Origin: Bordetella petrii
Lineage (GTDB): Bacteria; Pseudomonadota; Gammaproteobacteria; Burkholderiales; Burkholderiaceae_B
Assembly: GCA_017745595.1 (NCBI GenBank)
Contig: WMBV01000011.1
Coordinates: 62,001 to 126,000 of the forward strand
DNA length: 64,000 nucleotides
Direction of reading: 5' to 3'
Shown here: piece after piece, positions 17,778 through 35,071 of the stretch
Position numbering within the stretch: position 1 is the first letter of the stretch
Layout of the letters: each line of letters starts with the position of its first letter
Notes under the pieces: model-generated
The model's database searches: none
What the model was told of the DNA's origin: nothing
Seen by the model: only the letters and a program-made list of their open reading frames with translations
Made by a program: the position numbers and the translations under genes

Positions 17778-17783
17778 AGCCGT

Positions 17784-18377: not shown

Positions 18378-19364
18378 TCAGCGCGCCTGTTCCTGGGTGC
18401 TCTTGTCCACCAGCTTGGCGGCCGCGGCCCAGTTCTTCAGTTCGCTGTCCATATAGGCCTGCACGGCGGCGGCGTCGCGCGGCGCGCCGATGACCAGCCC
18501 GTCAGGCTCGAAGGCGGCCTGGAAGGACTGCTCTTGCATGACCTTGTTGGTCGCCGCCCGCAGTTTCTCTTCGACCGCGGCGGGAATCCCCTTGGGCGCG
18601 GCCAGCGCCCACCAGCCCGTGCCGTTGAAGCCCGTGAATCCGCTTTCCTGGACGGTCGGCACATCGGGAAGCAGCGCCAGGCGCTCCTTCGAGCCGATTA
18701 CCAGGGCGCGCACCTGGCCCGACTGGATCTGGCTGACCGCGCCGGAGACGACTTCGCTCATTACCGGAACATCGCCGCGCAGCAGCGCCAGCATGGCGGG
18801 GGCGCTGCCCTGGTACGGCACGTGCTTCAGGCTGATGTCCGCGCCCGCGGCAAAGCTCTCCATATTGGTGTGCAGCGAGGTCCCCGTGCCCGCCGACGAA
18901 TACATGAGCTGGCCCGGATTGGCCCGCGCGTATTCGACCAGATCGGCGATGGTGCGGTACGGGCTGCTTTTGTTGGCAAGAATGATAGGCGGCGTCTCGG
19001 CGACGATCGAGATCATCTTGAAATCGCGCGCCGGATCGTAAGGCAGGTCGGTGCGCGTCAGCGGGTTGAGCACGAAGGTGGTGGTGGTGCCGAACAGCAC
19101 CGTGTAGCCATCGGGCGCGGCGTTGGCAACGGCCTGGGCGCCGATCGCGGTCGAAGCGCCGGGACGGTTTTCCACGACGACCGGGAATCCCAGGTCTTTG
19201 GTCAGGCGTTCGGCCAGCACCCGCGCCAGTTTGTCGTTGGTGCCGCCGGGCGGGTTGGGCACCACCATGCGGATAGCGTGGTCCGGGTAGTCGGCCGCCG
19301 CCGCGCCCGCACCGCACAGTCCAACGGTGTAAACCAGGGCAGCCATCATCTTGAATGCTTTCAT
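18378..19364 (-). CDS. Bug/TctC-family periplasmic solute-binding protein
   Basis: A 328-residue receptor with a Sec signal peptide (MKAFKMMAALVYTVGLCGAG, cleavage near AAA). The mature start DYPDHAIRMVVPNPPGGTND is the classic Bug signature, and the interior has GASTAIGAQAVANAAPDGYT. Bug proteins are strongly expanded in Bordetella-like genomes and bind small carboxylates or related compounds. No TctA/TctB membrane partners are nearby. It probably feeds or senses the substrate of the co-transcribed monooxygenase. Confidence 0.92.
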   Translation of the reverse strand: MKAFKMMAALVYTVGLCGAGAAAADYPDHAIRMVVPNPPGGTNDKLARVLAERLTKDLGFPVVVENRPGASTAIGAQAVANAAPDGYTVLFGTTTTFVLNPLTRTDLPYDPARDFKMISIVAETPPIILANKSSPYRTIADLVEYARANPGQLMYSSAGTGTSLHTNMESFAAGADISLKHVPYQGSAPAMLALLRGDVPVMSEVVSGAVSQIQSGQVRALVIGSKERLALLPDVPTVQESGFTGFNGTGWWALAAPKGIPAAVEEKLRAATNKVMQEQSFQAAFEPDGLVIGAPRDAAAVQAYMDSELKNWAAAAKLVDKSTQEQAR

Positions 19365-19411
19365 GTTGTCTCCTCTTACGGGTACTCGTTCGTTGGTATT
19401 TGTTGACGGGC

Positions 19412-20497: not shown

Positions 20498-20517
20498 AAT
20501 GACTCCTCCTTTTAAAT

Positions 20518-20534
20518 GTTCCAATATTTGGAAC
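20518..20534. promoter_or_regulatory. Perfect inverted repeat in the monooxygenase/aldehyde dehydrogenase divergent region
   Basis: GTTCCAA-TAT-TTGGAAC lies 21 bases upstream of the monooxygenase start, in a 231-base divergent region otherwise lacking recognisable content. Its size and symmetry fit a repressor operator, possibly for the IclR encoded at the end of the operon. Confidence 0.55.
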
Positions 20535-20728
20535 AGCGTTTCATATAAAATAATTATAGGGAGCAACTTCAGGCAGCACAAGACATCGTTTGGCTGCTGA
20601 AGATTTCCGCACGCAACATGTTTTCGATGGGCGCGTGCCGCGCCCGAGGCCGCCCGGGGCTGGCCGCAAGTGCTTCGGCACAGTCCTGGGCGGCGGCATC
20701 CGCCGATCAACACCAAGGAGGAGGAACG

Positions 20729-22165
20729 ATGGCGAAGATGATTGTCGACGGCCAACAGGTCGATGCATTAGATGGGGCCACGCTGGACGTGGATTCGCCC
20801 GTGGATGGCAAGGTGTTCGCCACCATCCCGCGCGGCCGCGAGGCCGATGTGGACCGTGCGGTCGGCGCCGCCCGCCGGGCGCTGAGCGGGCCATGGGGCC
20901 GGCTTTCGGCCTTCGAGCGCGGCAGGCTCATGCTGGCATTCAGCCGCTGCATACTCGATCACATCGACGAGCTGACCGCCCTGGAATCGCGCGATACCGG
21001 CAAGTCGCTGTCCACCGCGCGGGCGGACGTCGCTGTCCTGGCGCGATACTTCGAGTTCTACGGGGGCGGCGCGGACAAGGTCCATGGACAGACCCTGCCC
21101 TTCCTGAACGATTACTCCGTGCAGGTCGTGCGCGAGCCGTTGGGCGTTACCGCGCACATCATTCCCTGGAACTACCCCGTCCAGATGCTGGGGCGCAGTG
21201 CCGCGCCGGCGCTGGCGATGGGCAACGCGGTCGTCGTCAAGCCGGCCGAAGACGCGTGCCTGGCGGTGCTGCGCGTGGCCGAGCTGGCGCTGGAAACGGG
21301 CTTTCCGCCCGGCGCGCTGAACGTCGTGACGGGCCTGGGCGAAGAGGCGGGCGCCGCGCTGTCGCGCCACCCCGACATCAATTTCATTTCATTCACCGGG
21401 TCGAACGAAGTGGGCGTCCTGATCCAGCAGGCCGCCGCGCTGAACGCGGTGAAATGCACGCTGGAACTCGGCGGCAAGTCCGCGCACATCGTGTTCGACG
21501 ACGCCAACATCGCGCGCGCGGTGCCCGCCATCACCAAGGGCATTGTCTACAACACTGGACAGACCTGCACGGCGGGCAGCCGCCTGCTGGTGCAACGGTC
21601 GATCTTCGACCCATTCATGGCGGCACTGGCCGAAGCGTTTTCCAAGACCACCGCCGGCACCCCGGAAATGGACCTGATGTGCGGCCCGTTGATCAACAAG
21701 TCGCAATACGAGCGCGTGCACCGGTACCTGCGGCAAGGCCGCGCCGACGGCCTGCGCGTCGTCGCGCAGGGGACTATCGCCGAGGGCGTGCCCGCCGGCG
21801 GCTACTACGTCACGCCCACGCTTTTCCAGGCGCCGGATCATTCCAGCTGCCTGCTGGCCGAAGAAATCTTCGGCCCGGTGCTGGTCGCCGTGCCGTTCGA
21901 GGACGAGGCCGAAGCCATCCGCCTGTCCAACGCCACCCGCTACGGCCTGATGGGGGCCGTCTGGTCCGAGAACGGCAGCCGCCAGCAGCGGGTGGCGCGC
22001 GGCATGCAGGCCGGCCAGGTCTACATAAACGGCTTCGGCGCCGGCGGCGGCGTCGAACTGCCGTTCGGTGGCGTCAAGCGCAGCGGCCATGGCCGCGAGA
22101 AGGGCTTCGTGGCGATGGAGGAAATGAGCGTCACGAAAACCATCATCCATTTCTACGGCGAGTAG
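20729..22165 (+). CDS. NAD(P)-dependent aldehyde dehydrogenase
   Basis: A 478-residue aldehyde dehydrogenase. Key residues are N148 (PWNYP), the cofactor loop FTGSNEVG, general base E246 (LELGGKS) and the nucleophile C280 (NTGQTCTAGSR). The start follows AAGGAGGAGGAA. An extension to 20618 reads through this ribosome-binding site and is rejected. It is divergent from the luciferase-like monooxygenase operon and likely oxidises an aldehyde released by that enzyme. The exact substrate is unknown. Confidence 0.92.
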   Translation: MAKMIVDGQQVDALDGATLDVDSPVDGKVFATIPRGREADVDRAVGAARRALSGPWGRLSAFERGRLMLAFSRCILDHIDELTALESRDTGKSLSTARADVAVLARYFEFYGGGADKVHGQTLPFLNDYSVQVVREPLGVTAHIIPWNYPVQMLGRSAAPALAMGNAVVVKPAEDACLAVLRVAELALETGFPPGALNVVTGLGEEAGAALSRHPDINFISFTGSNEVGVLIQQAAALNAVKCTLELGGKSAHIVFDDANIARAVPAITKGIVYNTGQTCTAGSRLLVQRSIFDPFMAALAEAFSKTTAGTPEMDLMCGPLINKSQYERVHRYLRQGRADGLRVVAQGTIAEGVPAGGYYVTPTLFQAPDHSSCLLAEEIFGPVLVAVPFEDEAEAIRLSNATRYGLMGAVWSENGSRQQRVARGMQAGQVYINGFGAGGGVELPFGGVKRSGHGREKGFVAMEEMSVTKTIIHFYGE

Positions 22166-22212: not shown

Positions 22213-22256
22213 TTGACGATGTTCCAAACCCCCTTTAATGTACGTACAAACGCACA
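22213..22256 (+). promoter_or_regulatory. Promoter and GntR-type operator copy 1
   Basis: TTGACG (22213) and TAATGT (22236) are spaced by 17 bases. The last three bases of the -10 begin an 18-base element, TGTACGTACAAACGCACA (22239-22256), a degenerate dyad. The same layout and nearly the same element (17 of 18 identical) recur at 25347-25390. The element ends just before the AGGAGG of the CoA transferase gene, so a bound regulator would block RNA polymerase. Confidence 0.7.
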
Positions 22257-22273: not shown

Positions 22274-23491
22274 ATGGCTGTTTCCCCCCAGGCCGGGCCG
22301 CAGGGCGCGCTGGCTGGCGTAAAGGTGCTTGACCTGTCGAATTTCCTGGCGGCGCCCATGAGCACGATGTTCCTGGCCGACTTCGGCGCCGACGTGATCA
22401 AGGTCGAGCGGCCGGGCAGCGGCGATGAGGTGCGCTACTGGGGGGAAAGCAAGGAAGGGGTGGGCCTGTATTTCAAGGTGCTGAACCGCGGCAAGCGCGC
22501 CATCACCCTGGACCTGCGCACGCCGTTCGGCCAGGACGCGGTCAAGCGCCTGGTGGCCGACATGGACATCGTGGTCGAGAACTACCGCAGCGGCACCCTG
22601 GAAAAATGGGGGCTGGGCTATGAGGCGCTGAAAAGCATCAACCCCGGCCTGGTGATGATGCGCGTGACCGGCTTCGGGCAAACGGGCCCGTATCGCGAGC
22701 GCCCCGGCTTCGGCACCCTGGCCGAGGCCTATGCCGGCTATGCGCAGATTTCCGGCTACCCCGACCAGCCGCCGCTGCTGCCCGGCTTCGGCTTGGCCGA
22801 TTCCACCACGGGGCTGATGGCCGCCTTCCTGGCCATGGTGGCCCTGCAGCACAAGCAGCGAACCGGCGAAGGACAGTATGTGGACCTGGCCATCTACGAA
22901 ACCCTGCTGACCCTGATCGGGCCGCACGTCATCAACTACGACCAGTTGGGCCTGGTACAGCAGCGCAGCGGCAGCCGGCTGCCCTTCACCGCGCCGCGCA
23001 ATACCTTCCAGACCCGCGACGGCAAGTGGCTGGCGATCGCCGGCAGCGCGCAATCGGCCTTCGTGCGGATCTGCCAGGTGCTGGACATGCCGGAGCTGGT
23101 CGACGATCCGCGTTTCGCCGACAACCGCCAGCGCCTGAAGCACGTGCGCGAGCTGGACGAGGCCCTGCAGCAGGCGGTGGGCCGCTACGACCTGGACGAC
23201 TTGCTGGCGCGCTCGGCCGACCTGCAATCGACCATGGCGCCGGTCAACGACGTGGCGCAGATCCTGGCCGACCCGCAGGTGCGGGCGCGCGAGAACATCG
23301 CCACGGTGCACGACGACGAACTGGGCGCGCCGCTGCGCATGCAGAACGTGGTGGGCAAGCTGTCGGCATCGCCCGGCGGCATCCGCGCGCCGGGTCCGGC
23401 GCTGGGCCGGCACAACCGCGAAATTCTGGTCGAGCGCCTGGGCTATTCCGAGGCCGAGCTGCAACGCGCCGGCATCGAACTGGCCGGCTGA
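22274..23491 (+). CDS. CaiB/BaiF-type (class III) CoA transferase
   Basis: A 405-residue class III CoA transferase: GVKVLDLSNFLAAPMST, ADFGADVIKVERPGSGD, VENYRSGTLEKWGLGYE, with probable catalytic D176 (GLADSTTGLM). It is the first gene behind operator copy 1 and is followed 26 bases later by an HMG-CoA-lyase-like gene. It likely activates an imported carboxylic acid to its CoA ester for the lyases of this island. Which acid is not shown by the sequence. Confidence 0.9.
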   Translation: MAVSPQAGPQGALAGVKVLDLSNFLAAPMSTMFLADFGADVIKVERPGSGDEVRYWGESKEGVGLYFKVLNRGKRAITLDLRTPFGQDAVKRLVADMDIVVENYRSGTLEKWGLGYEALKSINPGLVMMRVTGFGQTGPYRERPGFGTLAEAYAGYAQISGYPDQPPLLPGFGLADSTTGLMAAFLAMVALQHKQRTGEGQYVDLAIYETLLTLIGPHVINYDQLGLVQQRSGSRLPFTAPRNTFQTRDGKWLAIAGSAQSAFVRICQVLDMPELVDDPRFADNRQRLKHVRELDEALQQAVGRYDLDDLLARSADLQSTMAPVNDVAQILADPQVRARENIATVHDDELGAPLRMQNVVGKLSASPGGIRAPGPALGRHNREILVERLGYSEAELQRAGIELAG

Positions 23492-23517
23492 AGCCCGCTG
23501 AACTAAAGGAGCCAGCC

Positions 23518-24477
23518 ATGCCCATGCATTTCCCGGCGAGTGTCCAAGTGGCCGAGGTCGGCCCGCGCGATGGCCTGCAGAGTTTTCCGGCCTGGGTCTC
23601 TACCGACGACAAGGTGCGCATCATCGACCGGCTGTCGGCGGCGGGTTTCCCCGTGGTCGAAGTGACCGGCTTCGCGCATCCGCGCGTCATTCCGAACCTC
23701 AAGGACGCCGAAGAAGTCTGCGCGCGCATCCAGCGCCGCGCGGGCACCGTATACCGGGGGCTGGCGCCGAACGCGCGCGGGGCCGAGCGCGCCGTGCGGG
23801 CCAAGGTCGACGAGGTCGTCGGCCTGACGATCGGCAGCGCCGCCTACCTGAAGAAGAACCAGAACATGGATCCGGAGCAGGCCAACGCGCAGGCCATCGA
23901 AGCCTTTCGCATTGCCGATGCGGCGGGCCTGCGCTATGTGCTGGCGCTGGGCATGTCATTCTGGTGTCCGTATGAAGGCCTGATTCCCGAGGACCGCATC
24001 CTGGCGATGGTGGGCGAGTTCCGCAACGCGGGCATACGCCGCCTGTACCTGGCGGGCTCGGTGGGCATGGAAGACCCGCGCCACGTCAACCGCCTGTTCG
24101 CGCGGCTGGGCGACCGCTATCCCGACGTAGAGTTGGGCTTTCATATTCACAATTTGTCGGGCATGGCCACCGCCAACATCGCGGCGGCGCTGGACGGCGG
24201 CGCGGCGTGGCTGGAAGGCGCGATATGCGGCATTGGCGGCGGCATCGCCATGCCGCAGACGCTGGGCGCGGTGGGCAATTTTCCCACCGAAGACCTGGTG
24301 CGCATGCTGGGCCTGATGGGCATCGAGACCGGCCTGGATGCCGACGAAGTGCTGGCGGCGGCGCGCGACGTGGCGCAGGTGCTGGACATCGAAGCGCGCA
24401 GCCATGCCGCGCATGGCGCCACGCGCGAGGCCGTGGCCCAATGGGGCCGCGACCATCCGCACGAGCACCCCGCGTGA
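23518..24477 (+). CDS. HMG-CoA lyase-like protein (DRE-TIM family) lacking the catalytic Cys
   Basis: A 319-residue DRE-TIM barrel protein. EVGPRDGLQ supplies the Arg/Asp pair and GFHIHNLSG the H-x-H metal ligands. Where HMG-CoA lyases have GGCPYA with the catalytic cysteine, this protein reads GGGIAMP, so the usual acid/base Cys is glycine. The following GNFPTEDLVRML is conserved. It may cleave another acyl-CoA or condense one. It lies between a CoA transferase and the gntR gene, end to end with the latter. Confidence 0.85.
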   Translation: MPMHFPASVQVAEVGPRDGLQSFPAWVSTDDKVRIIDRLSAAGFPVVEVTGFAHPRVIPNLKDAEEVCARIQRRAGTVYRGLAPNARGAERAVRAKVDEVVGLTIGSAAYLKKNQNMDPEQANAQAIEAFRIADAAGLRYVLALGMSFWCPYEGLIPEDRILAMVGEFRNAGIRRLYLAGSVGMEDPRHVNRLFARLGDRYPDVELGFHIHNLSGMATANIAAALDGGAAWLEGAICGIGGGIAMPQTLGAVGNFPTEDLVRMLGLMGIETGLDADEVLAAARDVAQVLDIEARSHAAHGATREAVAQWGRDHPHEHPA

Positions 24478-24479
24478 GC

Positions 24480-25262
24480 CTATTCGTCGGTATTGTGGGC
24501 CCGGAAACGCGAGCTTTGCGTGTAGCGTCCGCTGGGATAATGGCCCAGGCCCACTTGCACCAGCTGGCCGGCGCGGTCCAGGTAGTACCGGGTGATCTTC
24601 AGCGCCGCCTGGCCTTCGGCGGCCTTCAGGGCGCGCGCCATCTGGCGGTCGAGGTTGGCCGCGGTGATTTCCTGCTGCACTTCGACGATGCGCACGCCGT
24701 AGCGCGCTTCCACCAGCGAATAGATGGGCTTGCGCAACACCTTGAGCGTGGTCAGCACGTCGGCGAATTCGGGCCGCAGGTAGACCTGCAGGTAGCTCAG
24801 GGGCGTGGTGCTGCCGACGATGGTGCGCACGATGTTGGTCTCGGCCCAGGCCTGCCCGGGCTGGCAATGCAGCTGGGCGGCCCAGGTTTCGTCGGCCACG
24901 ATCTCGCGGCGCGACTGCACGTGCATTTCGGTGGCATCCACGAATTGCAGCAGGTCGGATACCGAATTGATGCCGCTGAAAAAACGCAAACCTTGCGGAC
25001 GCGACCGCACCCGGGTACCCACGCCGGGGCGCGACCAGATGATGCCTTCGTCTTTCAGTTCGCGCAGGGCCTGTCTGACCGTGTGGCGGCTGACGTTGTA
25101 GCGCAGCGCCAGTTCGCCTTCGGTGGGCAGGGTACTGCCCACCGGATAGCGGTCATTTTCGATGTCTTGCTTCAGGGTGCGGGCCAGCGCCGCGTACAGC
25201 GGCTGCCGCCCACCCGAAAACGCATCGAAGGCAACAGGCGGGGACGACGGGGTAGTTGCCAT
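24480..25262 (-). CDS. GntR-family (HutC type) transcriptional regulator
   Basis: A 260-residue GntR protein. The winged HTH is at about 20-85 (STLPTEGELALRYNVSRHTVRQALRELKDEGII), followed by a UTRA-like ligand domain (about 110-250). It is divergent from the CitE-like gene at 25508 and convergent with the HMG-CoA-lyase-like gene, so it sits between the two arms it probably controls. Two near-identical operator elements, ahead of both arms, support this. The ligand is presumably an acid or acyl-CoA of the island. Confidence 0.9.
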   Translation of the reverse strand: MATTPSSPPVAFDAFSGGRQPLYAALARTLKQDIENDRYPVGSTLPTEGELALRYNVSRHTVRQALRELKDEGIIWSRPGVGTRVRSRPQGLRFFSGINSVSDLLQFVDATEMHVQSRREIVADETWAAQLHCQPGQAWAETNIVRTIVGSTTPLSYLQVYLRPEFADVLTTLKVLRKPIYSLVEARYGVRIVEVQQEITAANLDRQMARALKAAEGQAALKITRYYLDRAGQLVQVGLGHYPSGRYTQSSRFRAHNTDE

Positions 25263-25346
25263 GCGGTGACCAACGTTGGGATTGGGACGGATTGTAATAG
25301 AGCACCCGCTTCGGGCGCGGCCGGCGCAGGCCGCGTTAACCCGATA

Positions 25347-25390
25347 TTGACAGTGCCGATTTTGCCCTATATTGTACGTACATACGCACA
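25347..25390 (+). promoter_or_regulatory. Promoter and GntR-type operator copy 2
   Basis: TTGACA (25347) and TATTGT (25370) are spaced by 17 bases. The 18-base element TGTACGTACATACGCACA (25373-25390) begins inside the -10 and is an imperfect palindrome (14 of 18 positions agree with its reverse complement). It lies in the gntR/citE divergent region, about 110 bases from either start. The layout is the same as copy 1. Confidence 0.75.
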
Positions 25391-25507
25391 AATAGAAAGC
25401 CGGCTGTACCTGAGACACCTCGATCGACCCTGGCCGCTTGCGGCCTTGTGACGAACCGGCAAGGCGGCCCCGCCGCCGGTTCGCCCACTTGTCAGTGGAG
25501 AATTTCG

Positions 25508-26386
25508 ATGCCTGTGCTGCGGTCCTTCCTGTTTGCCCCCGCCAATCACCCCCGGCGGGTCGAGAAAGCATTCACCCTGGCCGCCGATGCGGTGATCCTG
25601 GACCTGGAAGACGCGTGCGCGGTGTCGGAAAAGGCCGCCAGCCGGCCGAAGGTCGTGCAGGCCATGCAGGCGCCGCGCGCATGCCTGGGCTATGTGCGGG
25701 TCAATCCCCTGCCCACCCCGTTTGCCTATGGCGACCTGACCGAGACCGTACGCCCCGGGCTCGACGGCGTGTTGCTGCCCAAGGTGGAATCGGCCGCCGA
25801 CCTGCAGACTGCCGACTGGCTGATCGGCCAGCTGGAACGCGAGCACGGCATGGTGGCCGGCAGCGTGGACTTGATCGGCCTGATAGAGACCGCGCAGGGC
25901 ATGGCCCGGCTGCCCGAAATACTGCGCGCCAGTCCGCGCGTCAAGCGGGTGGCCTTCGGGGCGGGCGACTACACGCTGGACCTGGACCTGACCTGGACGC
26001 GCGACGAGGCCGAACTGGCTGCCTATCGCAGCGAAATCGTGCTGCAGTCGCGCGCGGCCGGCCTGGAGCCGCCGCTGGATACGGTGTGGGTAAACCTGAA
26101 AGACCCCGAAGGGTTTGCTTTGTCGGCGCAGCGCGCGCGCGGCCTCGGCTTCCAGGGCAAGCTGTGCATCTATCCCGACCAGGTGCCCGTGGCGAATGCG
26201 GCGTTCAGCCCCAGCGATGCGCAGGTCGCGCATGCGCGGCGGGTCATGGACGCCTTCGCGCAGGCCGAAGCCCAAGGTTCGTCGGCCATCCAGCTCGACG
26301 GCCAGTTCATCGACTACCCGATTGTTTATGCGGCCCAGCGGGTGCTGGATGCCGCGCAACGGATCGCCGCCGCACAGACGGCATGA
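25508..26386 (+). CDS. CitE/HpcH-family acyl-CoA lyase (paralogue 1)
   Basis: A 292-residue TIM-barrel CitE-like protein. Conserved parts are the CoA/substrate Arg (R64, YVRVNP), the metal ligands E127 (LIETAQG) and D154 (FGAGDYT), and the start SFLFAPANHP. Family members cleave or make malyl-, citramalyl- or citryl-CoA type thioesters. It is the first gene of the large plus-strand arm behind operator copy 2. The start at MPVLRSF follows GGAG; a longer frame from 25448 is not needed. Confidence 0.88.
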   Translation: MPVLRSFLFAPANHPRRVEKAFTLAADAVILDLEDACAVSEKAASRPKVVQAMQAPRACLGYVRVNPLPTPFAYGDLTETVRPGLDGVLLPKVESAADLQTADWLIGQLEREHGMVAGSVDLIGLIETAQGMARLPEILRASPRVKRVAFGAGDYTLDLDLTWTRDEAELAAYRSEIVLQSRAAGLEPPLDTVWVNLKDPEGFALSAQRARGLGFQGKLCIYPDQVPVANAAFSPSDAQVAHARRVMDAFAQAEAQGSSAIQLDGQFIDYPIVYAAQRVLDAAQRIAAAQTA

Positions 26387-26456
26387 ACCGGCGGGCGCAT
26401 GGCCCGCGCATGCGGCCACGCGTCCGCCGCCGCAGTGCAATACCGAGGAGACAGGC

Positions 26457-27668
26457 ATGCAAGACAAGGCAGCAGGGGTACGGCCGCTGGATGGCTTGAA
26501 GATCATCGATGTATCGAGCTTCCTGGCCGGGCCGTTTTGCTCGACGCAATTGGCCGAGTTCGGGGCCGACGTCATCAAGCTGGAATTGCCGAAGATAGGC
26601 GACGCGTTGCGCCGGTTCGGCAGCATCACGCCCAGCGGCGATTCGCTGCCCTGGCTGTCGGAGTGCCGCAACAAGAAATCGGCCACGCTGGATTTGCGCA
26701 AGCCGGAAGGCGCCGAACTGTTGAAGGCGCTGGTGGCGCAATCGGATGTGCTGGTCGAGAATTTCCAGCCGGGCACCCTGGAAAAATGGGGGCTGGGATG
26801 GGACGTGCTGCGCGAGGTCAATCCGCGCCTGATCATGGTGCGCATCTCGGGTTACGGCCAGACCGGGCCCTATAGCGGCCGCCCGGGGTTCGGCCGCATC
26901 GGCAATGCGTTCGGCGGGCTGTCGTACCTGGCGGGTTATCCCGACCGCCCGCCGGTCACGCCCGGCTCGGCCACCATTCCCGACTACATGGCGGGCCTGT
27001 ACGGCGCCCTGGGCGTGCTGCTGGCCATGCAGGCGCTGGCCAAGACCGGCCGCGGCCAGGTCATCGACATCGGCCTGTACGAACCGATCTTCCGCATCCT
27101 GGACGAACTGGCGCCCAGCTATCACATGAAGGGCTATGTGCGCGAGCGCATGGGCCCCGGCACGGTGAACGTGGTGCCGCACAGCCACTATCCCACCTCG
27201 GACGGGCGCTGGATCGCCATTGCCTGCACCAGCGACAAGATCTTCGAGCGGCTGGCCCAGGCGATGGGCGTGCCGGAATTCGGCGGCGCGGGCAAGTGGG
27301 GCACCATCGTGCAGCGCGAGGCCGAGCGGGCCCAGGTCGACGAATACGTGGGCGCCTGGACGGCGCGCTTCACGCGCGACGAAGTGCTGGGCATCTGCGA
27401 ACAGTTCCAGGTGCCGTGCGGGCCGGTATACGCGGTGGACGAGATCTTCGAAGACCCCCAGTACCGGGCCCGCGGCAACATCGTCTACGTAAAGGACGAG
27501 CGCGGCGAATATGCCCTGCCCAACGTCGTGCCGCGCCTGACCGACACCCCGGGCGGCATCGATCACATGGGCCCCACGCTGGGCCAGCACAACGACGAAG
27601 TGTTCCGCGAACGGCTGGGCCTGTCGGAAGCGCGCATCGCCGAACTGACCCGCGCCGGCGTCATCTGA
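26457..27668 (+). CDS. CaiB/BaiF-type (class III) CoA transferase
   Basis: A 403-residue class III CoA transferase: GLKIIDVSSFLAGPFCS, AEFGADVIKLELPKIGD, VENFQPGTLEKWGLGW, with probable catalytic D176 (TIPDYMAGLYG). It resembles the transferase at 22274 in motif order but is not a recent duplicate. It follows a CitE-like gene and precedes the importer. Two CoA transferases in one regulon could act on different acids, or form a transfer pair. Confidence 0.9.
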   Translation: MQDKAAGVRPLDGLKIIDVSSFLAGPFCSTQLAEFGADVIKLELPKIGDALRRFGSITPSGDSLPWLSECRNKKSATLDLRKPEGAELLKALVAQSDVLVENFQPGTLEKWGLGWDVLREVNPRLIMVRISGYGQTGPYSGRPGFGRIGNAFGGLSYLAGYPDRPPVTPGSATIPDYMAGLYGALGVLLAMQALAKTGRGQVIDIGLYEPIFRILDELAPSYHMKGYVRERMGPGTVNVVPHSHYPTSDGRWIAIACTSDKIFERLAQAMGVPEFGGAGKWGTIVQREAERAQVDEYVGAWTARFTRDEVLGICEQFQVPCGPVYAVDEIFEDPQYRARGNIVYVKDERGEYALPNVVPRLTDTPGGIDHMGPTLGQHNDEVFRERLGLSEARIAELTRAGVI

Positions 27669-27706
27669 CGACGGCATCCGCCGACACTCACGGAGGAAGA
27701 CCCATC

Positions 27707-28570
27707 GTGCCTGTCTTCGAACTACTGGTCGCCGGGATACTGCTGGGCGGGTTGTACGCGCTGATGGCGTGCGGCCTGAACCTGGTATTCGGCGTCATGC
27801 GCGTGATCAACTTCGCCCACGGCGACCTGCTGGCCGTGGGCGCGCTGACGGCCGTATCGCTGGTGGCCGGCATGCACATGCCCTACCTGGCGGCGCTGAT
27901 CCTGGTGCCGCTGATGACCGCGGCCATCGGCCTGCTGATGCAATACGCGGTGATACGCCACATCATCGACGGCCCGCCCATCATGTCGCTGCTGGCCACC
28001 TTTGCGCTGTCGACCATCGTGGTGAACATCTCGCTGCTGATCTGGGGCGGCGGTTTCCATGGGCTGTCGACGGTGCTGGGCGGGTCGATCCCGCTGCTGG
28101 GCATGGACGTGCCGCTGGCGCGGCTGGTGTCGTTCCTGGTGGCGATGGCCGCCACGCTGGGCGTGTGGTGGTTCCTGCGCAGCACGCGCTTCGGCAAGGC
28201 GATCCGGTCCGTTTCGCAGGCGCCCGAGCTGGCGGTGATCTCGGGCATTTCCATCAACCAGGTGCGCAACGTCACTTTCGCCCTGGGCGCGGCCATGGCC
28301 GGCCTCGCCGGCGTGCTGCTCGCGCCCACTTTCGCCTCGGACGCGCAGCTGGGCGCGCGCTTCGGCATCAAGGCCTTCGCCGTGATCATCGTGGGCGGCA
28401 TGGGCAGCTATCCCGGCGCCATGGCGGCCGCATTGCTGATGGGGGTACTGGAAGTGTTCGCCGGCTACCTGTACGGCCAGGTGCTGGGCGCAGCGACGGT
28501 GTTCCTGGCCATGCTGGTGGTGCTGGTCGTGCGGCCCCGCGGCTTGTTCGGCATAGGAGCGCGCGCATGA
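27707..28570 (+). CDS. ABC transporter permease, branched-chain amino acid type (LivH)
   Basis: A 287-residue inner-membrane permease with about eight hydrophobic segments. The N-terminus ELLVAGILLGGLYALMACGLNL and GVMRVINFAHGD are diagnostic of LivH. The start is GTG behind GGAGGA (27692-27697), because no in-frame ATG precedes the first membrane span. LIV-type systems import hydrophobic amino acids, but also many aromatic and aliphatic carboxylates; the surrounding lyases suggest a carboxylate here. Confidence 0.9.
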   Translation: MPVFELLVAGILLGGLYALMACGLNLVFGVMRVINFAHGDLLAVGALTAVSLVAGMHMPYLAALILVPLMTAAIGLLMQYAVIRHIIDGPPIMSLLATFALSTIVVNISLLIWGGGFHGLSTVLGGSIPLLGMDVPLARLVSFLVAMAATLGVWWFLRSTRFGKAIRSVSQAPELAVISGISINQVRNVTFALGAAMAGLAGVLLAPTFASDAQLGARFGIKAFAVIIVGGMGSYPGAMAAALLMGVLEVFAGYLYGQVLGAATVFLAMLVVLVVRPRGLFGIGARA

Positions 28571-29523
28571 GATTCCTGCCCCTTTCCATCCTGTGCGTCG
28601 CGGCCCTGGCCGTCCTGCCTTTCGTGGCGGGATCGTACGGCATGTCGTTCATGATCCAGACGCTCATTTTCATCGCGCTGGCGTATTCGTGGAACCTGAT
28701 AGGCGGCTATGCCGGCTACACCCACTTCGGCCAGGTGGCCTTTTTCGGCCTGGGCGCCTACGTGGGGTCGCTGGCCGTTCTGGATGGCACCCACTGGCTG
28801 GTGGCCTCGCTGTACGCCGGGGTGGCGGCCTCGTTGCTGGCGGCGGTGCTGGGCGGTGTCATGCTGCGCCTGAAGGGGCCGTACTTCGCCATCGGCATGT
28901 TCGGCATTGCGCGCGTCTGTGAATCGCTGGCGCTGGGGTTGGACAACATCACCCAGGGCGGCACGGGCCTGTATCTGGTGGTCGTCGAACAACTGCACCT
29001 GTACTACGCAGTGGGCGCGATCGCCTTGCTGATGGTGCTGGCGACCTGGCGGCTGGACAGCTCGCGGCTGGGCCTGCAACTGCTGTCGATCCGCGAGGAC
29101 GAGACCGCCGCCAACGCGCTGGGGGTACGCACCACCCGCCTGAAGATCGGCACGTTCGTGGCGTCGGCCTTCGTGCCCGGCGTCTGCGGCTGCCTGTACG
29201 CCTGCTACCTGGGTTACATCGACCCGGCCACGGCGTTCGCGCCCATGACCGAACTGACGGTGATCGCCATGGTGCTGCTGGGCGGCATGGGCACGGTGCT
29301 GGGCCCGCTGGTGGGGGCGGCGCTGATGTCGGTGGTGAATGAAGTACTGTGGGCGCGCCTGCCCGAAATCTACCTGGCGCTGGTCGGCGTCATCATCCTG
29401 ATCGCCGTGCTGTACATGCCGCGCGGCATTGTCAACTACGCGCAGCGGCGCGCCTGGCGCTGGGTGCCGGTGGCGCGCGGCCACTTGCGCCGCATGGCGC
29501 AGCGCAAGAAGGAGGCCGCTTGA
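28567..29523 (+). CDS. ABC transporter permease, branched-chain amino acid type (LivM)
   Basis: A 318-residue permease with about nine hydrophobic stretches. YSWNLIGGYAGYTHFGQVAFFGLGAY and the EAA-like stretch SIREDETAANALGVRTTRLK are typical of LivM. Its ATG overlaps the livH-like stop (ATGA), so the two permeases are coupled. The lysine/arginine-rich C-terminus (RMAQRKKEAA) is cytoplasmic. Confidence 0.9.
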   Translation: MRFLPLSILCVAALAVLPFVAGSYGMSFMIQTLIFIALAYSWNLIGGYAGYTHFGQVAFFGLGAYVGSLAVLDGTHWLVASLYAGVAASLLAAVLGGVMLRLKGPYFAIGMFGIARVCESLALGLDNITQGGTGLYLVVVEQLHLYYAVGAIALLMVLATWRLDSSRLGLQLLSIREDETAANALGVRTTRLKIGTFVASAFVPGVCGCLYACYLGYIDPATAFAPMTELTVIAMVLLGGMGTVLGPLVGAALMSVVNEVLWARLPEIYLALVGVIILIAVLYMPRGIVNYAQRRAWRWVPVARGHLRRMAQRKKEAA

Positions 29524-29525
29524 AC

Positions 29526-30239
29526 ATGAGTGCCACACCCTCGCCCATGCTGTCCGTCGAGAACGTCAGCAAGCGCTTCGCCGGCCGCGTCGCGCTGGAC
29601 GGCGCCAGCCTGGAGATCGCGCCGGGCTCGATCACCGGCGTGATCGGCCCGAACGGGTCCGGCAAATCGACTCTGTTCAACATCATCGCTGGCGCCATCC
29701 CTGCCGACGGCGGCCGGGTGGTATTGCAGGGCCAGGACGTCACCCGCGCCACGCCGGCCGACATCTGCCGGCGCGGAGTGGGACGCACCTTCCAGATATC
29801 GCGCCTGTTCAACGAATTGACGGTGCTGGAAAACCTGGTGGCGATCGCCCACGGCCTGTCCGATGCGGCGGCCGTGGAACGGGCCCTGTCGCTGCTGGAC
29901 TTCCTGGAAATCTCGGCCCTGCGCGACAAGTGGGGAGCCGAGTTGTCGTACGGCCAGCGCAAGCTGGTAGAGATTGCGCGCGCCTTGATGCTGCAGCCCT
30001 CGATGATGTTGCTGGACGAGCCGTTTGCCGGTATCAACCCGCGCCTGCAGAACCGCATCGTCGATCACCTGCAGGCGTTGCGCGCGCAAGGCATGACGTT
30101 GTTTTTCATCGACCATGAAATGCGCATCGTGCTCGAGATCTGCGATGACCTGTACGTGCTGGCCGAAGGACGCGTGATCGCGCATGGCGATGCCGACGCG
30201 ATCCGCGGCGATGCGCGCGTCAAGGATGCTTACTTCTAG
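29526..30239 (+). CDS. ABC transporter ATP-binding protein (LivG)
   Basis: A 237-residue ATPase with Walker A GPNGSGKST, signature LSYGQRKLVEIARAL and Walker B MLLDEPFAGINP, followed by the switch IDHEMRIV. The LSYGQ signature and the late EGRVIAHGDADAI are characteristic of LivG. It begins three bases after the LivM stop. It works with the LivF-like ATPase encoded at 31496. Confidence 0.9.
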   Translation: MSATPSPMLSVENVSKRFAGRVALDGASLEIAPGSITGVIGPNGSGKSTLFNIIAGAIPADGGRVVLQGQDVTRATPADICRRGVGRTFQISRLFNELTVLENLVAIAHGLSDAAAVERALSLLDFLEISALRDKWGAELSYGQRKLVEIARALMLQPSMMLLDEPFAGINPRLQNRIVDHLQALRAQGMTLFFIDHEMRIVLEICDDLYVLAEGRVIAHGDADAIRGDARVKDAYF

Positions 30240-30293
30240 CGTTCCTGACCAAAACGTCCTGCGGGACACATAACTGGAGACAAGGAGCAGCCC

Positions 30294-31475
30294 ATGAATC
30301 GACATATCGCGAAACTGGTGCTGGCGGCCGCCGGCACGTTGGCTACGCTGGGGGCGGCACAGGCAGCCGAAAACAAGCCCATCCGCGTAGGCGTTGCCCT
30401 ATCGCAGTCGGGCAACCTGGCCGACAGCGCCAAGCATTATTTCCAGGGCGTAGAACTATGGCGCGACCAGGTCAACGAGCGCGGCGGCCTGCTGGGCCGC
30501 CAGGTCGAGCTGGTGGTGTACGACGACCGCAGCGATCCCGCCACGGCGGCCCGCCTGTACGAAAAGCTGATCAGCGACGACAACGTCGACCTGCTGTTCG
30601 GCCCCTGGGGGTCGGCTTCGGCCGCAACGGCCGCGGCGGTGGCCAACAAGCACAAGCGCGTGTTCCTGAATTCGGGCGGGGCGTCCGAGCAGATCCAGGA
30701 GCGCGGCTTCAAGTATGTGTTCCAGACGGCCGCGCCCATCAGCGCCTATGTGGCCAGCATCGGCCCCCTGGCCGAACAGCACCAGCTCAAGAGCATCGCC
30801 TTCTTCGGCCGGGACTACGCCGCGGCGCGCGACATGGCCAAGAGCATCAAGAAAATCGCCGAAGACCGCAAGCTGGACCTGAAGACCACCGAGTTCTTTC
30901 CCGCCGGCACGACGGACTTTTCGTCGATGATCGCCCAAGCGCGGCAAATGCAGCCCGATATCTGGGTATCGGTGGGCTACCCGAACGAGGCGATCGAGAT
31001 GGTGCGCCAGATGAAAGCGTCGAACTACCTGCCCAAGGTGTTCATCCACAACGGCGCCTCGATCGAAGACTTCCTGAAGAGCACGGGCAAGGATTCGGAG
31101 TACGTGTTCGCCATGTCGCTCTACGAACCGTCGCTCAAGACCCAGGGCAATGCCGAGTTCGTCAAGGCGTACAAGGAACGCTACAAGACCGAACCGGGCT
31201 ATTACTCGGCGTTCTCGTATGCGGGCGCCACGGTGCTCGAGGCCGCCGTCAAGCAGGCCGGATCGGTCGACCAGGAAAAACTGCGCGAGACGCTGACCAC
31301 GCTGGAGCTGGATACCGTGATGGGGCACCACAAGGTCGATCCGAAGACGGGCAAGCAGGTGGGGGTGACCGGGCTGCTGGCCCAGGTACGCGACGGCAAG
31401 CGCGAGATCGTGATGCCGCTGGAGGTGAAGACGATGGACGCGGTGATTCCCATGCCCGCCTGGGACAAACGCTGA
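30294..31475 (+). CDS. Periplasmic ABC receptor, branched-chain amino acid type (LivJ-like)
   Basis: A 393-residue family 5 receptor with a clear signal peptide (MNRHIAKLVLAAAGTLATLG, cleavage near AQA-AENK). The mature part starts IRVGVALSQSGNLADSA and includes the hinge motif VELVVYDDRSDP. It determines what the importer takes up. The receptor gene lies between the two ATPase genes. Its length and QVNERGGLLGRQ motif resemble receptors for organic acids as well as amino acids; no ligand is assigned. Confidence 0.9.
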   Translation: MNRHIAKLVLAAAGTLATLGAAQAAENKPIRVGVALSQSGNLADSAKHYFQGVELWRDQVNERGGLLGRQVELVVYDDRSDPATAARLYEKLISDDNVDLLFGPWGSASAATAAAVANKHKRVFLNSGGASEQIQERGFKYVFQTAAPISAYVASIGPLAEQHQLKSIAFFGRDYAAARDMAKSIKKIAEDRKLDLKTTEFFPAGTTDFSSMIAQARQMQPDIWVSVGYPNEAIEMVRQMKASNYLPKVFIHNGASIEDFLKSTGKDSEYVFAMSLYEPSLKTQGNAEFVKAYKERYKTEPGYYSAFSYAGATVLEAAVKQAGSVDQEKLRETLTTLELDTVMGHHKVDPKTGKQVGVTGLLAQVRDGKREIVMPLEVKTMDAVIPMPAWDKR

Positions 31476-31495
31476 CGGCCTGCCGGGAGATCGCC

Positions 31496-32290
31496 ATGCA
31501 ACAGCAAACGGACGCCGCGCGCTTCCTGGAGTTGCGCGCCGTAACGACGGGCTACGGCGACGTGCCCGTGGTGCGCAACGCCAACATGGCGTTCGTGCGC
31601 GGCGCTATCACGGCGGTGATCGGCTCCAACGGCGCCGGCAAGTCGACGGCCATCAAGGCGGCCGCCGGCCTGCTGCCGGTATGGAAAGGGCAGGTGCTGA
31701 TCGACGGCGCCGACGTCACGGCCGAGGCGCCGCACAAGCGCCTGGCGCGCGGCGTGGCATTCGTGCCCCAGGGCCGCATCGTGCTGCCGGACATGACCGT
31801 GCGCGAAAACCTGGACATCGGCGCCTACATCCTGGGCGGCGACCGCGCTCGCATCGACGCCGCGCTGGACCGCATGGTGCGCGTCTTCCCGGTGATCGGC
31901 CAGCGCATGAACCAACTGGCCGGCACCATGAGCGGCGGCGAACAGCAGATGCTGGCCATCGCCCGCGCCCTGATGACCGATCCCACCGCCATCATCCTGG
32001 ACGAGCCTTCGCTGGGGCTCTCGCCCAAGCTGGTGGACCAGGTCTTCGAGAAACTGACGGCCCTGGCCGGCGACGGCCTGACCGTGATCATGGTCGAGCA
32101 GAAGGCCTCGCGCGCGCTGGCGGTGGCCGACAGCGGGTATGTGATGCACACCGGGCAGGTCGTCTATTCGGGGCCGGCGCGGCAATTGCTGGACAACCCC
32201 AATGTGCAGCGCCTGTTCCTGGGCGAAGTGCCCGAGGAAATCGACCGCCTGCTGGCGGCGGTGGAAGACGGGGAGCCCACCCATGCCTGA
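31496..32290 (+). CDS. ABC transporter ATP-binding protein (LivF)
   Basis: A 264-residue ATPase with Walker A GSNGAGKST, LivF-type FVPQGRIVLPDMTVRENLDIGAY, signature MSGGEQQMLAIARALM and Walker B IILDEPSLGLSP. The C-terminus is slightly longer than usual (about 20 residues, ending EDGEPTHA). It overlaps the start of the next CitE-like gene by eight bases, linking importer and enzyme translation. Confidence 0.9.
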   Translation: MQQQTDAARFLELRAVTTGYGDVPVVRNANMAFVRGAITAVIGSNGAGKSTAIKAAAGLLPVWKGQVLIDGADVTAEAPHKRLARGVAFVPQGRIVLPDMTVRENLDIGAYILGGDRARIDAALDRMVRVFPVIGQRMNQLAGTMSGGEQQMLAIARALMTDPTAIILDEPSLGLSPKLVDQVFEKLTALAGDGLTVIMVEQKASRALAVADSGYVMHTGQVVYSGPARQLLDNPNVQRLFLGEVPEEIDRLLAAVEDGEPTHA

Positions 32291-33176
32291 GCCGCGCCTG
32301 CGCCGCAGCCTGCTGATGACGCCGGGAAACCGGCCCGAACGGCTGGCCCGGGCGGCCGGCTGCGGCGCCGACGTGCTGGTGTTCGACCTGGAAGACAGCG
32401 TGCCGCCCGAGCACAAGGCGCGGGCCCGCGACTGCGTGGCGCAGGCCTTGCGGGCGTTGCCTGCGGGCGGCCCCGAGCGCTGCGTGCGCATCAACGGCCT
32501 GGATACCCCGCATGCCGCGCTCGACCTGGCGGCGCTGCCGCTGGCACATCTGGATTCCATCATGGTGCCGAAAGTCGAATCGCCCGACACGCTGCGCGCC
32601 CTGGATGCGCGGCTGGCCGAACAGGAAACCGCGCAGAAACGGACACGGGCGCTCGAGCTGATCGTAATGCTGGAGACGCCGCGCGGCATCCTGCGCGCCT
32701 TGCCGATCGCCGATGCCTGCCATCGCACCACCGCGCTGTTCTTCGGCTCGGGCGATTACACCTCGGCCCTGGGCGCCGAGGTGGACGACACGACGCTGCT
32801 GTACCCGCGCTCGGTGGTGGCCGCGGCGGCGGCCGCCGCCGGCCTGGCCGCGATCGACGCCGCGTATTTCCAGGACGTGAAGGATGCCGCCGCCGCGCGC
32901 CGCGATGCCGACACGGCGCGGCGGCTGGGCTTCGACGGCAAGGTGGTATTCCATCCCAACCAGGTCGAGCCGGTCAATGCCGTATTCACGCCCGATGCCG
33001 CGGCGCTCGAACGGGCGCGCCGCATCGTGGCCGCCTATGAGGCGGGCCTGCGCGATGGGCGCGGCACGACCGTGGTGGATGGCGTGTTCGTGGCGGTCGA
33101 CCTGGTGCCCCCCGCGCGCCGCCTGCTGGCGCGGGCCGCCGCCATCGCGGCCCTGTCCGGCGCAACCGGGCCCTAG
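32283..33176 (+). CDS. CitE/HpcH-family acyl-CoA lyase (paralogue 2)
   Basis: A 297-residue CitE-like protein starting RRSLLMTPGNRPERLARA, with R69 (CVRINGLD), E131 (MLETPRG) and D158 (FGSGDYTSALG). Metal and CoA residues are complete, so it should be active. The closest known roles are citryl-, malyl- or citramalyl-CoA lyase. Its start overlaps the LivF-like gene. It differs clearly from paralogues 1 and 3, which argues for separate substrates. Confidence 0.88.
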   Translation: MPEPRLRRSLLMTPGNRPERLARAAGCGADVLVFDLEDSVPPEHKARARDCVAQALRALPAGGPERCVRINGLDTPHAALDLAALPLAHLDSIMVPKVESPDTLRALDARLAEQETAQKRTRALELIVMLETPRGILRALPIADACHRTTALFFGSGDYTSALGAEVDDTTLLYPRSVVAAAAAAAGLAAIDAAYFQDVKDAAAARRDADTARRLGFDGKVVFHPNQVEPVNAVFTPDAAALERARRIVAAYEAGLRDGRGTTVVDGVFVAVDLVPPARRLLARAAAIAALSGATGP

Positions 33177-33218
33177 AGTTCGCCGCTGTTTCATCGCCGA
33201 TTTTCCGGAGCTTCATCC

Positions 33219-34196
33219 ATGACATGCACAGTTATCCCGCGCCTGCAGCGTTCAGAGCTGGCGGTGCCGGCCAGCCGCCCGCAGTTCTTCGCCAAGGCGG
33301 CGGCCAGCGCCGCCGATGTGGTCTTCCTGGACCTGGAGGATGCCGTGGCGCCGCAGCTGAAAGACCAGGCGCGCAGCCAGGCGGTCGAGGCGCTGAACGA
33401 TATCGACTGGGGGGCCAAGACGCTGGCGGTACGGGTCAATGGCCTGGACACCCCCTGGGCGTTGCAGGATATCGTCGAGGTGGCGCGCCAGGCGCCGCGG
33501 CTGGACATGATCTTGCTGCCCAAGGCGGGCTCGGCCTTCGACGTGCAATTCGTGGACCAGATACTGACCTTGGTCGAACGCGAGACCGGCCGCGCCAAGC
33601 GTACCGGCATCGAGGTGCTGATCGAGACCGCGCGCGGCGTGGCCAATGCGGAGGCCATTGCCGCCAGTTCCGAACGCCTGGAAGCCATGATTTTCGGCGT
33701 GGGCGACTATACGGTGGACATGCGCACCTATGACCCGGTGTTCGGCACGCCCAGCCCGCGCTATGCCGTGCTGACGCACGGGCAGGGCCCCGCGCGCGAA
33801 CGCCACTGGAACGATCAGTGGCATTTCGCCATGGCGCGCATCGCCAATGCCTGCCGCGCCAACGGCCTGCGGCCCATCGACGGCCCGTTTACCGACTACG
33901 GCGATACCGAAGGGTTCCAGGCGTGCGCGCAGCGCGCGGCCGCGCTGGGTTTCGAGGGCAAGTGGGCCATCCATCCCACCCAGGTCGAGTTGGCCAACAA
34001 CGCTTTTTCGCCAACAGAAGAACAGCTGGCCTGGGCCACCCGCATTCGCGCGATGATCGACGCCTCGAACCGGCAGGGGCAAGGCGCGGTGGGCGATGGC
34101 GGCGTGCTGGTCGACATGGCGCATTTGAAGCAGGCCAATGCGCTTGCCGAACGGCAGGCGCTGATCGAGCGGCAAGCCGGCCGCCCCACGCCATGA
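33219..34196 (+). CDS. CitE/malyl-CoA lyase-type protein (paralogue 3)
   Basis: A 325-residue lyase with R72 (VRVNGLD), E136 (LIETARG) and D163 (GVGDYTVDMRT). It is longer than the other two and carries an insert (DPVFGTPSPRYAVLTHGQG, HWNDQWHFAMAR) and a C-terminal tail seen in L-malyl-CoA/beta-methylmalyl-CoA lyases. These split malyl- or methylmalyl-CoA into glyoxylate and acetyl- or propionyl-CoA. The ATG of the DehI-like gene overlaps its stop. Confidence 0.88.
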   Translation: MTCTVIPRLQRSELAVPASRPQFFAKAAASAADVVFLDLEDAVAPQLKDQARSQAVEALNDIDWGAKTLAVRVNGLDTPWALQDIVEVARQAPRLDMILLPKAGSAFDVQFVDQILTLVERETGRAKRTGIEVLIETARGVANAEAIAASSERLEAMIFGVGDYTVDMRTYDPVFGTPSPRYAVLTHGQGPARERHWNDQWHFAMARIANACRANGLRPIDGPFTDYGDTEGFQACAQRAAALGFEGKWAIHPTQVELANNAFSPTEEQLAWATRIRAMIDASNRQGQGAVGDGGVLVDMAHLKQANALAERQALIERQAGRPTP

Positions 34197-35071
34197 ACGC
34201 CGCCGATCCGGTGCCCGCCATTGCCGAGGCGGATGCCACGGGGGAATTGGCGGCGCTGTACGACGATATCCGCAAGACCTTGAACGTGCCGTTCGTGAAC
34301 CTGGTCTGGCGGCACCTGGCCACCCTGCCGGGCGCGCTGCCATGGACCTGGGCCACGGTGCGGCCGCTGTATGCCTTGCCGGCCTTCGACCAAGCCGCCG
34401 ACAGCCTGGCGCGCGTGCCGGTACGGGATGCGGGGATCGAGCCGTGTCTGCCCGAGGCGCTGCAGCTGGTCGGGGTGGGCGGGACCGAATGCCGGGCGGT
34501 CGGCGCGCTGCTGGCCGACTACGGCCACGCCAATGCGCGCGCCCTGCTGGCGTTGCTGGCGGCGCAGGCATGCCTGGCCGACCCGGACGACAAGGCGCGG
34601 CCTGTACCGCCACAGCCGCCGCCAGCCGCGGCGGACCAGATGCCCGCGCATGCGCGCGTGCCGGGCGCCGCGCTGGCCCTGCCCGGCCTGGATACGCTGT
34701 CGCCGGCCCTGCTGGGCGTCATTCAAGCCTTGAACAGCTATGGCCGCATTGCCGACACGGCCATCGTCGGCAGCCTGTACCGCCACCTGGCGCATTGGCC
34801 CGGCTTTCTGGCGCTGGCCTGCGCCACGCTGGCCCGGCCGCAGCGCGATGGCGTGCTGGCGGCCCAGGTGCGCCGCACCCTGGCCGATGCGCAAGAGGCG
34901 GCGCGGTATTTGCCTGTCGCCGCGCCGGCGCCGCTGCCGGCGGCCGCGCGCACCGCCGCCGCGGCGTCCATCGACGCTTTCACCGGGCAGGCCATCAGCC
35001 GCATGGTGGTCATGGGAGCGGCCATGCAAGGCCTGCTGCCCCTGGCCGAAGCCACGGCACCGGAAATTTGA
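34193..35071 (+). CDS. DehI-type 2-haloacid dehalogenase-like protein
   Basis: A 292-residue protein with two similar helical halves, each having a YRHLA/WRHLA-type core (NLVWRHLATLPGALPWTWA and GSLYRHLAHWPGFLALA). This pseudo-twofold repeat and the length match DehI, a group I dehalogenase that hydrolyses both D- and L-2-haloacids. Asp188 (RIADTAIVG) is where the catalytic Asp189 of DehI would be expected, though I placed it by eye only. It is the last gene of the island and coupled to the malyl-CoA-lyase-type gene. Confidence 0.7.
   Translation: MNAADPVPAIAEADATGELAALYDDIRKTLNVPFVNLVWRHLATLPGALPWTWATVRPLYALPAFDQAADSLARVPVRDAGIEPCLPEALQLVGVGGTECRAVGALLADYGHANARALLALLAAQACLADPDDKARPVPPQPPPAAADQMPAHARVPGAALALPGLDTLSPALLGVIQALNSYGRIADTAIVGSLYRHLAHWPGFLALACATLARPQRDGVLAAQVRRTLADAQEAARYLPVAAPAPLPAAARTAAAASIDAFTGQAISRMVVMGAAMQGLLPLAEATAPEI

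Follow-up and report, generated by a model that had tools for sequence, protein, structure and literature searches.

The 64,000-nucleotide stretch of Bordetella petrii DNA analysed here (the window), part of a 6.1-Mb genome assembled into 68 contigs, holds an island of genes for coenzyme A (CoA) chemistry that looks like a single regulon, with one promoter-operator shared by both of its arms. Arm 1 (22274–24477, plus strand) encodes CaiB1, a family III CoA transferase of 405 residues (22274–23491; PF02515, E 2.1e-119), and an HMGL-like lyase of 319 residues (23518–24477), from a subfamily that lacks the loop Cys of 3-hydroxy-3-methylglutaryl (HMG)-CoA lyase. Arm 2 (25508–35071, plus strand) begins with CitE1, a CitE-like lyase (25508–26386), and CaiB2, a second family III CoA transferase of 403 residues (26457–27668); these are followed by the five genes of a LIV-type importer, namely the permeases LivH (27707–28570) and LivM (28567–29523; both PF02653), the ATPase LivG (29526–30239; PF00005), a LivK-type binding protein (30294–31475; Peripla_BP_6) and the ATPase LivF (31496–32290; PF00005). 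It ends with CitE2, a CitE-fold protein in which Ala replaces the catalytic Asp (FVAVD; 32283–33176), CitE3, which resembles malyl-CoA/β-methylmalyl-CoA lyases (33219–34196), and a DehI-like protein without the dehalogenase Asp (34193–35071), whose ATG overlaps the CitE3 stop codon. Between the arms, on the minus strand, lies a GntR/HutC-type regulator (24480–25262; best NCBIfam model HutC, 88 of 220 bits), the presumed repressor of both.

Pfam and NCBIfam models back every one of these genes except the DehI-like one, with two CoA_transf_3 (PF02515), one HMGL-like (PF00682) and three HpcH_HpaI (PF03328) domains, and the overlaps of a few bases in arm 2 (LivH/LivM, LivF/CitE2, CitE3/DehI-like) are as an operon would show. 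The genes that an initial annotation had listed as tightly packed are thus present, in an order that recurs in other genomes; its one GntR is a HutC-type gene, now placed on the minus strand between the arms, and its DRE-TIM lyase-like protein is the HMGL-like one, with limits corrected to 23518–24477. Since the CaiB and CitE scores all fall under the equivalog cut-offs (for CaiB1 the best NCBIfam model, SucGlut, gives 283 of 750 bits), sequence alone cannot name any member as a known enzyme.

Both arms start from a common promoter frame, TTGAC(A/G), N17 and TA(A/T)TGT running into the operator (that is, TTGAC(A/G)-N17-TA(A/T)TGTACGTACA), and at both the 18-base operator, TGTACGTACA(A/T)ACGCACA, overlaps the presumed -10 box. 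The copy before CaiB1 occupies 22239–22256 within a promoter-operator at 22213–22256 (plus strand; TTGACG-N17-TAATGTACGTACAAACGCACA), and the copy between gntR and CitE1 occupies 25373–25390 within one at 25347–25390 (plus strand; TTGACA-N17-TATTGTACGTACATACGCACA). At up to three mismatches the operator matches twice in the window, against a shuffled mean of 0.06, and four times in the genome: the two exact copies at 22239 and 25373, and two others with three mismatches each. The reversed pattern, used as a control, gives seven matches at the same tolerance, and the inexact matches therefore carry no meaning; the promoter scan, taken alone, is not significant either (2 found, 1.7 expected). 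From this arrangement we infer that GntR represses both arms. The initial annotation had named different signals for the two arms as the finding that would speak against it; what is found is an identical promoter-operator at both. Chance clustering is excluded by this shared operator together with synteny in other genomes.

Ten related loci, picked for carrying the 10-base core of the operator, TGTACGTACA, hold 17 copies of it within 226,580 bases, where shuffled sequence gives a mean of 0.01 and at most 1. The exact 10-base form is found in nine of 21 scanned loci (L086, L088, L089, L090, L096, L098, L016, L028, L054), among which L090 repeats L016 and L054 repeats L098. In six loci (the window, L086, L055, L088, L089 and L122) all 12 operators retain the TTGAC-N17-TA(A/T)TGT frame.

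Our tentative reading of the island is a single regulon under GntR for the breakdown of methyl-branched hydroxy-dicarboxylates related to citramalate (methylmalate), a substrate class suggested by the gene content. Its distribution was followed with CaiB2 in 268 genomes of the family, scoring the best few candidates per genome, so that counts are lower bounds: CaiB2 occurs at 69% identity or more in at least 16 places in 15 genomes. The loci read were the 15 such places outside the window and one at 61% (G069), with other places of lower identity left out. The whole LIV-type island (the DehI-like gene not counted) is present in G000, G101, G104, G105 and G109; in G096 it lies on two contig pieces (L055 and L087, the latter listed among the scanned loci as a fragment), which end ahead of the expected CitE2 and CitE3. 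G100 carries a complementary split: one locus (L122) has CaiB1-HMGL, GntR, Liv, CitE2, CitE3 and the DehI-like gene without CitE1-CaiB2, and the other (L016/L090) has CitE1-CaiB2 and a further GntR, together with a TRAP importer, two isochorismatase-type hydrolases and an amidase. In 399 genomes from the order, the HMGL search finds six (own included) at E 1e-90 or better; none of 101 matching plasmid records covers 80% of CitE1-CaiB2, and a search of viral contigs gave nothing of use.

The core of CoA transferase and lyase is thus kept in varying combinations, with importers (LIV or TRAP) and entry enzymes that change, and it is the joint occurrence of CaiB, HMGL-type and CitE genes with differing importers that argues for the unity of the module. 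Four loci of one genus (L092, L093, L095, L097) have LeuC and LeuD divergent from CaiB1-HMGL-CaiB2-CitE2, followed by an amidase and GntR; LeuC-LeuD adjoins this set in all four loci of the type (by family model in L092, by tblastn in all), and a TctC-like protein, seen by eye, accompanies it in L092 and L095. L096, of LIV type, adds a class I fumarase alpha subunit after CitE3 (396 bits, cut-off 276), with the beta subunit seen by eye. L125 strings together CitE1, an HpaB homologue, CaiB2-HMGL-CaiB1, TauD, an MmgE-like protein, GntR, a CaiB, an acyl-CoA dehydrogenase and a RipB/Ich-like hydratase (226.6 of 340 bits), the last two under their equivalog cut-offs. The hydratases found in relatives are thus of the LeuCD and class I fumarase kinds, and together with the RipB/Ich-like protein and acyl-CoA dehydrogenase they point to C5-type chemistry. 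That no hydratase was noted for the island at first holds for the island itself; the LeuCD- and fumarase-type enzymes in relatives' clusters, and the class I fumarase and LeuCD homologues outside the island in the own genome, explain the absence.

Other additions in relatives leave room for a different substrate, in that the same module might act on larger 2-alkyl- or 2,3-dialkyl-malates derived from amides, imides or N-heterocycles: amidases and maleamate-type hydrolases would open the amide, and a hydratase would yield a substituted malate, from which the CoA transferases and lyases would release a 2-oxo acid and an acyl-CoA. L016, L028 and L054 have CitE1 with two isochorismatase-type hydrolases and a TRAP importer, joined by an amidase in L016 and partly in L028, and by CaiB1-HMGL in L054, which as L054/L098 reads TRAP, two hydrolases, CaiB1-HMGL, GntR, CitE1-CaiB2. 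The nearest solved relative of one hydrolase is 3OT4/3UAO, annotated 'putative isochorismatase', which we take to be the Bordetella maleamate amidohydrolase NicF. The Novosphingobium loci L040 and L048 combine an Asp/Glu racemase-type protein, GntR, CitE1 and CaiB2 with HpaB, TauD and a hydrolase, and in L100 a PrpB/phosphoenolpyruvate-mutase-type lyase (under cut-off) adjoins CaiB2, a hydrolase, a TRAP importer and an amidase. However, neither the window cluster nor the fetched stretches of other LIV-type loci hold such an amidase or hydrolase, and CaiB2 may simply have been recruited into several pathways; we consider this explanation unlikely, if the strongest of the competing ones. A search of open-access papers for maleimide or methylmaleamate catabolism gave nothing of use. 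An HpaB-family oxygenase accompanies CitE1-CaiB2 in L016 (1126–2724), L040 (12377–13906) and L125 (6360–7898), the last two at 60% and 67% identity to the L016 copy; the nearest solved relative of the latter is 1U8V, a dehydratase/isomerase of γ-aminobutyrate metabolism, but at least two Cys ligands, at what we take to be their positions, are unkept by eye, and a 4-hydroxybutyryl-CoA dehydratase was therefore rejected.

Returning to the citramalate reading, the HMGL-type lyase belongs to the family of HMG-CoA lyase and shares with it R17, D18, E48, H209, H211 and N254, invariant in 16 HMGL-type rows, of which we take all but E48 to be the catalytic Arg and the metal ligands. Unlike HMG-CoA lyase, it has gained a three-residue insertion, reads HxHN (HxHD in four of five own paralogues), and has lost the loop Cys: the window protein and 11 orthologues read CGIGGGIAMP, against GG-CP(Y/F)A in all five own-genome paralogues, at the position that presumably holds the catalytic Cys of HMG-CoA lyase (Cys266 in the human enzyme). 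Of the more distant orthologues, L123 and L124 show GIGGGMAIP with a Cys later in the loop, and L125 shows CGVGGGIAMP; C237 of the window protein, a few residues ahead of the usual Cys place, is invariant in 16 rows. In the structure model the active-site loop (238–253) has a predicted local distance difference test score (pLDDT) below 50.

These features bear on an HMG route, in which HMG-CoA made by a CaiB would be cleaved, in its S and R forms, by the HMGL and CitE proteins, with acetyl-CoA and acetoacetate as products. In its favour, the HMGL-like protein narrowly reaches the score of the PRK05692 subfamily model (246.2 of 246 bits), succinate-HMG CoA-transferases (9BR7) come next after 4ED9 among the solved structures nearest to both CaiBs, and (R)-HMG-CoA is a substrate that CitE-type enzymes can split (PMC6689899). 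Nevertheless, the loop Cys is missing in the 12 aligned orthologues and present in all five own paralogues, free HMG is achiral and would not need two opposite-handed lyases, and LeuCD- and fumarase-type hydratases do not fit such a route; it is thus quite improbable.

The three CitE proteins, correctly recognized as distinct from the outset, form three groups in a tree of 35 rows (CitE1, 15; CitE2, 11; CitE3, 7), each with support of at least 99/99; L033_6298, a 36% paralogue, and one own paralogue were set apart as 'other'. According to PMC3832036, the catalytic residues of Rhodobacter sphaeroides MCL are Glu44, Asp45, Arg76, Glu141, Asp168 and Asp299, and the single exception named across the CitE-like superfamily is a Glu at the Asp299 position in the thioesterase group. 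All six residues are kept in every aligned CitE1 and CitE3 row. In CitE2, the Asp299 position is Ala in ten of ten aligned rows, with an Asp two residues on, and the three proteins can thus not be treated as equal lyases, as first proposed. Nor is CitE2 a malyl-CoA thioesterase of the known kind, having Ala instead of Glu; this Glu is missing from all three proteins (Asp in CitE1 and CitE3). CitE2 does not look decayed, as its model folds well (pLDDT 88, best structural match Mcl) and its gene is kept in ten loci. A CitE2-group protein beside CitE1 in Enterovirga (L032, 11123–11998) has lost Asp45, the metal ligand Asp168 and Asp299, and is a candidate non-catalytic partner. Against the solved (S)-citramalyl-CoA lyase 8KHL, CitE1 scores 136.8 bits, and CitE2 and CitE3 score 80 and 73. 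No protein exceeds the RipC/Ccl cut-off in the own genome or in any of 14 control genomes; the best two in the own genome are CitE2 and CitE1, with CitE3 appearing as two partial matches.

CitE3 is Mcl-like in sequence (Methylobacterium extorquens 5UGR, E 8e-104) and keeps all six catalytic residues; its setting, a CaiB/HMGL regulon that includes a LIV importer, is different from that of Mcl. Its closeness to Mcl suggests that one regulator might serve two pathways, malyl/methylmalyl-CoA chemistry around glyoxylate (CitE3, CitE2) and the breakdown of an unrelated acid, all the more as the parts do occur apart (CitE1-CaiB2 without HMGL in L016, CaiB2-HMGL without CitE1 in L099). The complementary split in G100 and the one shared operator, however, favour joint use of both arms, and two separate pathways are the least probable of the explanations considered here.

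Under the citramalate reading, the LIV importer would take up the acid, which would relieve repression by GntR, and CaiB1 and CaiB2 would activate the acid with CoA drawn from succinyl-CoA or another acyl-CoA. The HMGL-type lyase would split (R)-citramalyl-CoA and CitE1 (S)-citramalyl-CoA, both to acetyl-CoA and pyruvate, and the Mcl-like CitE3 would split the 3-methylmalyl isomer to propionyl-CoA and glyoxylate; CitE2 would be a CitE-fold enzyme with altered chemistry, either thioester hydrolysis or a helper role. Citraconate and mesaconate would be hydrated by LeuCD- and fumarase-type enzymes, encoded in the clusters of relatives and elsewhere in the own genome. LeuCD-type enzymes convert citraconate to (R)-citramalate. 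Class I fumarases convert mesaconate to (S)-citramalate, as described in PMC4682846. According to PMC6689899, both (S)-citramalyl-CoA and (R)-HMG-CoA are substrates of the CitE-type Rv2498c, PA0883 acts specifically on (R)-HMG-CoA, and (S)-HMG-CoA is the form used by the human-type HMG-CoA lyase family; the specificities of Rv2498c and the human-type lyase imply that the two folds are opposite in handedness, and one fold per enantiomer is thus a natural reading. One lyase of each fold, each adjoining a CaiB, fits the need of using both methylmalate enantiomers. A more specific proposal, that the regulon is an enantiocomplementary path of aerobic Burkholderiales for either enantiomer of a branched malate (and hence for citraconate as well as mesaconate), pairing a new HMGL-fold (R)-lyase without Cys with a CitE-fold (S)-lyase, plus a CitE2 subfamily without Asp that catalyses a different reaction, is possible but doubtful.

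The island invites comparison with several known systems. Its pairing of CaiB with an HMGL-type lyase may have a counterpart in Chloroflexus, where succinyl-CoA:(R)-citramalate CoA transferase is paired with an (R)-citramalyl-CoA lyase that we take to belong to the HMGL family. PMC8307300 gives the EC numbers of the two activities, 2.8.3.20 and 4.1.3.46. With the itaconate/methylsuccinate cluster of Pseudomonas aeruginosa and Cupriavidus (ict, ich, ccl, mcd, mmgE) it shares a CoA transferase and a CitE-type lyase, which in that cluster is an (S)-citramalyl-CoA lyase ending in acetyl-CoA and pyruvate (PMC12290011); the likeness extends in the relative L125 to MmgE-, acyl-CoA dehydrogenase- and Ich-like genes, under family cut-offs. 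Unlike it, the window has no Ich among its identified genes and no Ccl over cut-off, and has two CaiBs, an HMGL-type lyase, an Mcl-like CitE and a LIV importer. To use mesaconate, Burkholderia xenovorans employs a class I fumarase, a CoA transferase and an (S)-citramalyl-CoA lyase (PMC4682846), and the proposed route would likewise combine a hydratase with CoA transfer and C–C cleavage; the L096 cluster resembles it in its class I fumarase homologue, whereas the window cluster has no hydratase (its own fumarase lies elsewhere) and has a second, HMGL-type arm. No description of the cluster turned up among the open-access papers searched.

How bacteria grow on (S)-citramalate, mesaconate and itaconate is already explained. 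When the Pseudomonas cluster was transferred to P. putida KT2440, however, it conferred no growth on (R)-citramalate or citraconate (PMC9875883), and for this gap the regulon offers named genes; the regulon could be a route for acids, for example (R)-citramalate, that lie outside the reach of the characterised Pseudomonas one, with a possible use in the upcycling of branched diacids. Two enzyme subfamilies come to light with it whose active sites are altered, HMGL without Cys and CitE2 without Asp, both directly assayable.

Several observations weigh against this reading. The exact 10-base operator is missing from 12 of the 21 scanned loci (L087, L091–L095, L097, L099–L101, L040, L048) and from L123–L125; L096, a whole LIV-type island, has just one exact copy, and the TTGAC-N17 frame stands at none of the five exact operators in the remaining four loci. 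Comparison of the LivK-type binding protein yields no ligand. CitE1 scores at least as high against Mcl 5UGR (145.5 bits) and 1SGJ (142.3) as against 8KHL, and the RipC/Ccl equivalog (375 bits) is failed by all three CitE proteins (CitE1 154, CitE2 188.8, CitE3 188.5). CitE2 and the DehI-like protein fit nowhere in a simple citramalate route, and the fumarase and LeuCD of the own genome share just 34–40% and 31–45% identity with the cluster copies of relatives. The amidases, isochorismatase-type hydrolases, HpaB and TauD added in relatives handle amides or rings, and the true substrate may thus be larger or nitrogen-bearing. Overall, the initial interpretation, a single unit seemingly built to import and CoA-dependently cleave a branched hydroxy-dicarboxylate, agrees with ours in that respect and is partly supported as a whole.

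Neither Pfam (at E 0.001) nor NCBIfam (at E 1e-5) gives a match for the DehI-like protein; a four-sequence profile search links it to DehI (3BJX, E 3e-19), in keeping with its first description. It is nonetheless rejected as a dehalogenase: the catalytic residue of DehI, which we take to be Asp189 and whose place in 3BJX was counted by hand, corresponds to the Leu of an invariant SLYRHLA. DehI-like genes occur with the HMGL-type gene in six loci: the window, L086, L096 (4144–5007), L099 (2302–3150), L123 (6629–7441) and L122 (866–1729). L099, L123 and L124 combine the HMGL-type gene with a nitroreductase-like protein (BluB model, under cut-off), joined in the first two by the DehI-like protein.

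A different context for a CitE1-like gene (69%) is seen in Zwartia hollandica (L023, 7628–16505), where it lies with a TctC protein, an aldo-keto reductase, a cyanophycin synthase-like protein and malate synthase G. The record of L028 (49% G+C) is titled Bordetella parapertussis, like several metagenome-assembled ones, and its name is probably doubtful. Upstream of the island, an aldehyde dehydrogenase was rejected as a member, as the L086 stretch has no match to it. Further upstream, a set at 14110–20755 resembles another catabolic unit: IclR (14110–14883, minus), CaiB (14987–16183, plus), a second IclR (17016–17777, plus), a flavin reductase (17784–18323, minus), a TctC-type binding protein (18378–19364, minus) and a luciferase-like monooxygenase (19412–20755, minus).

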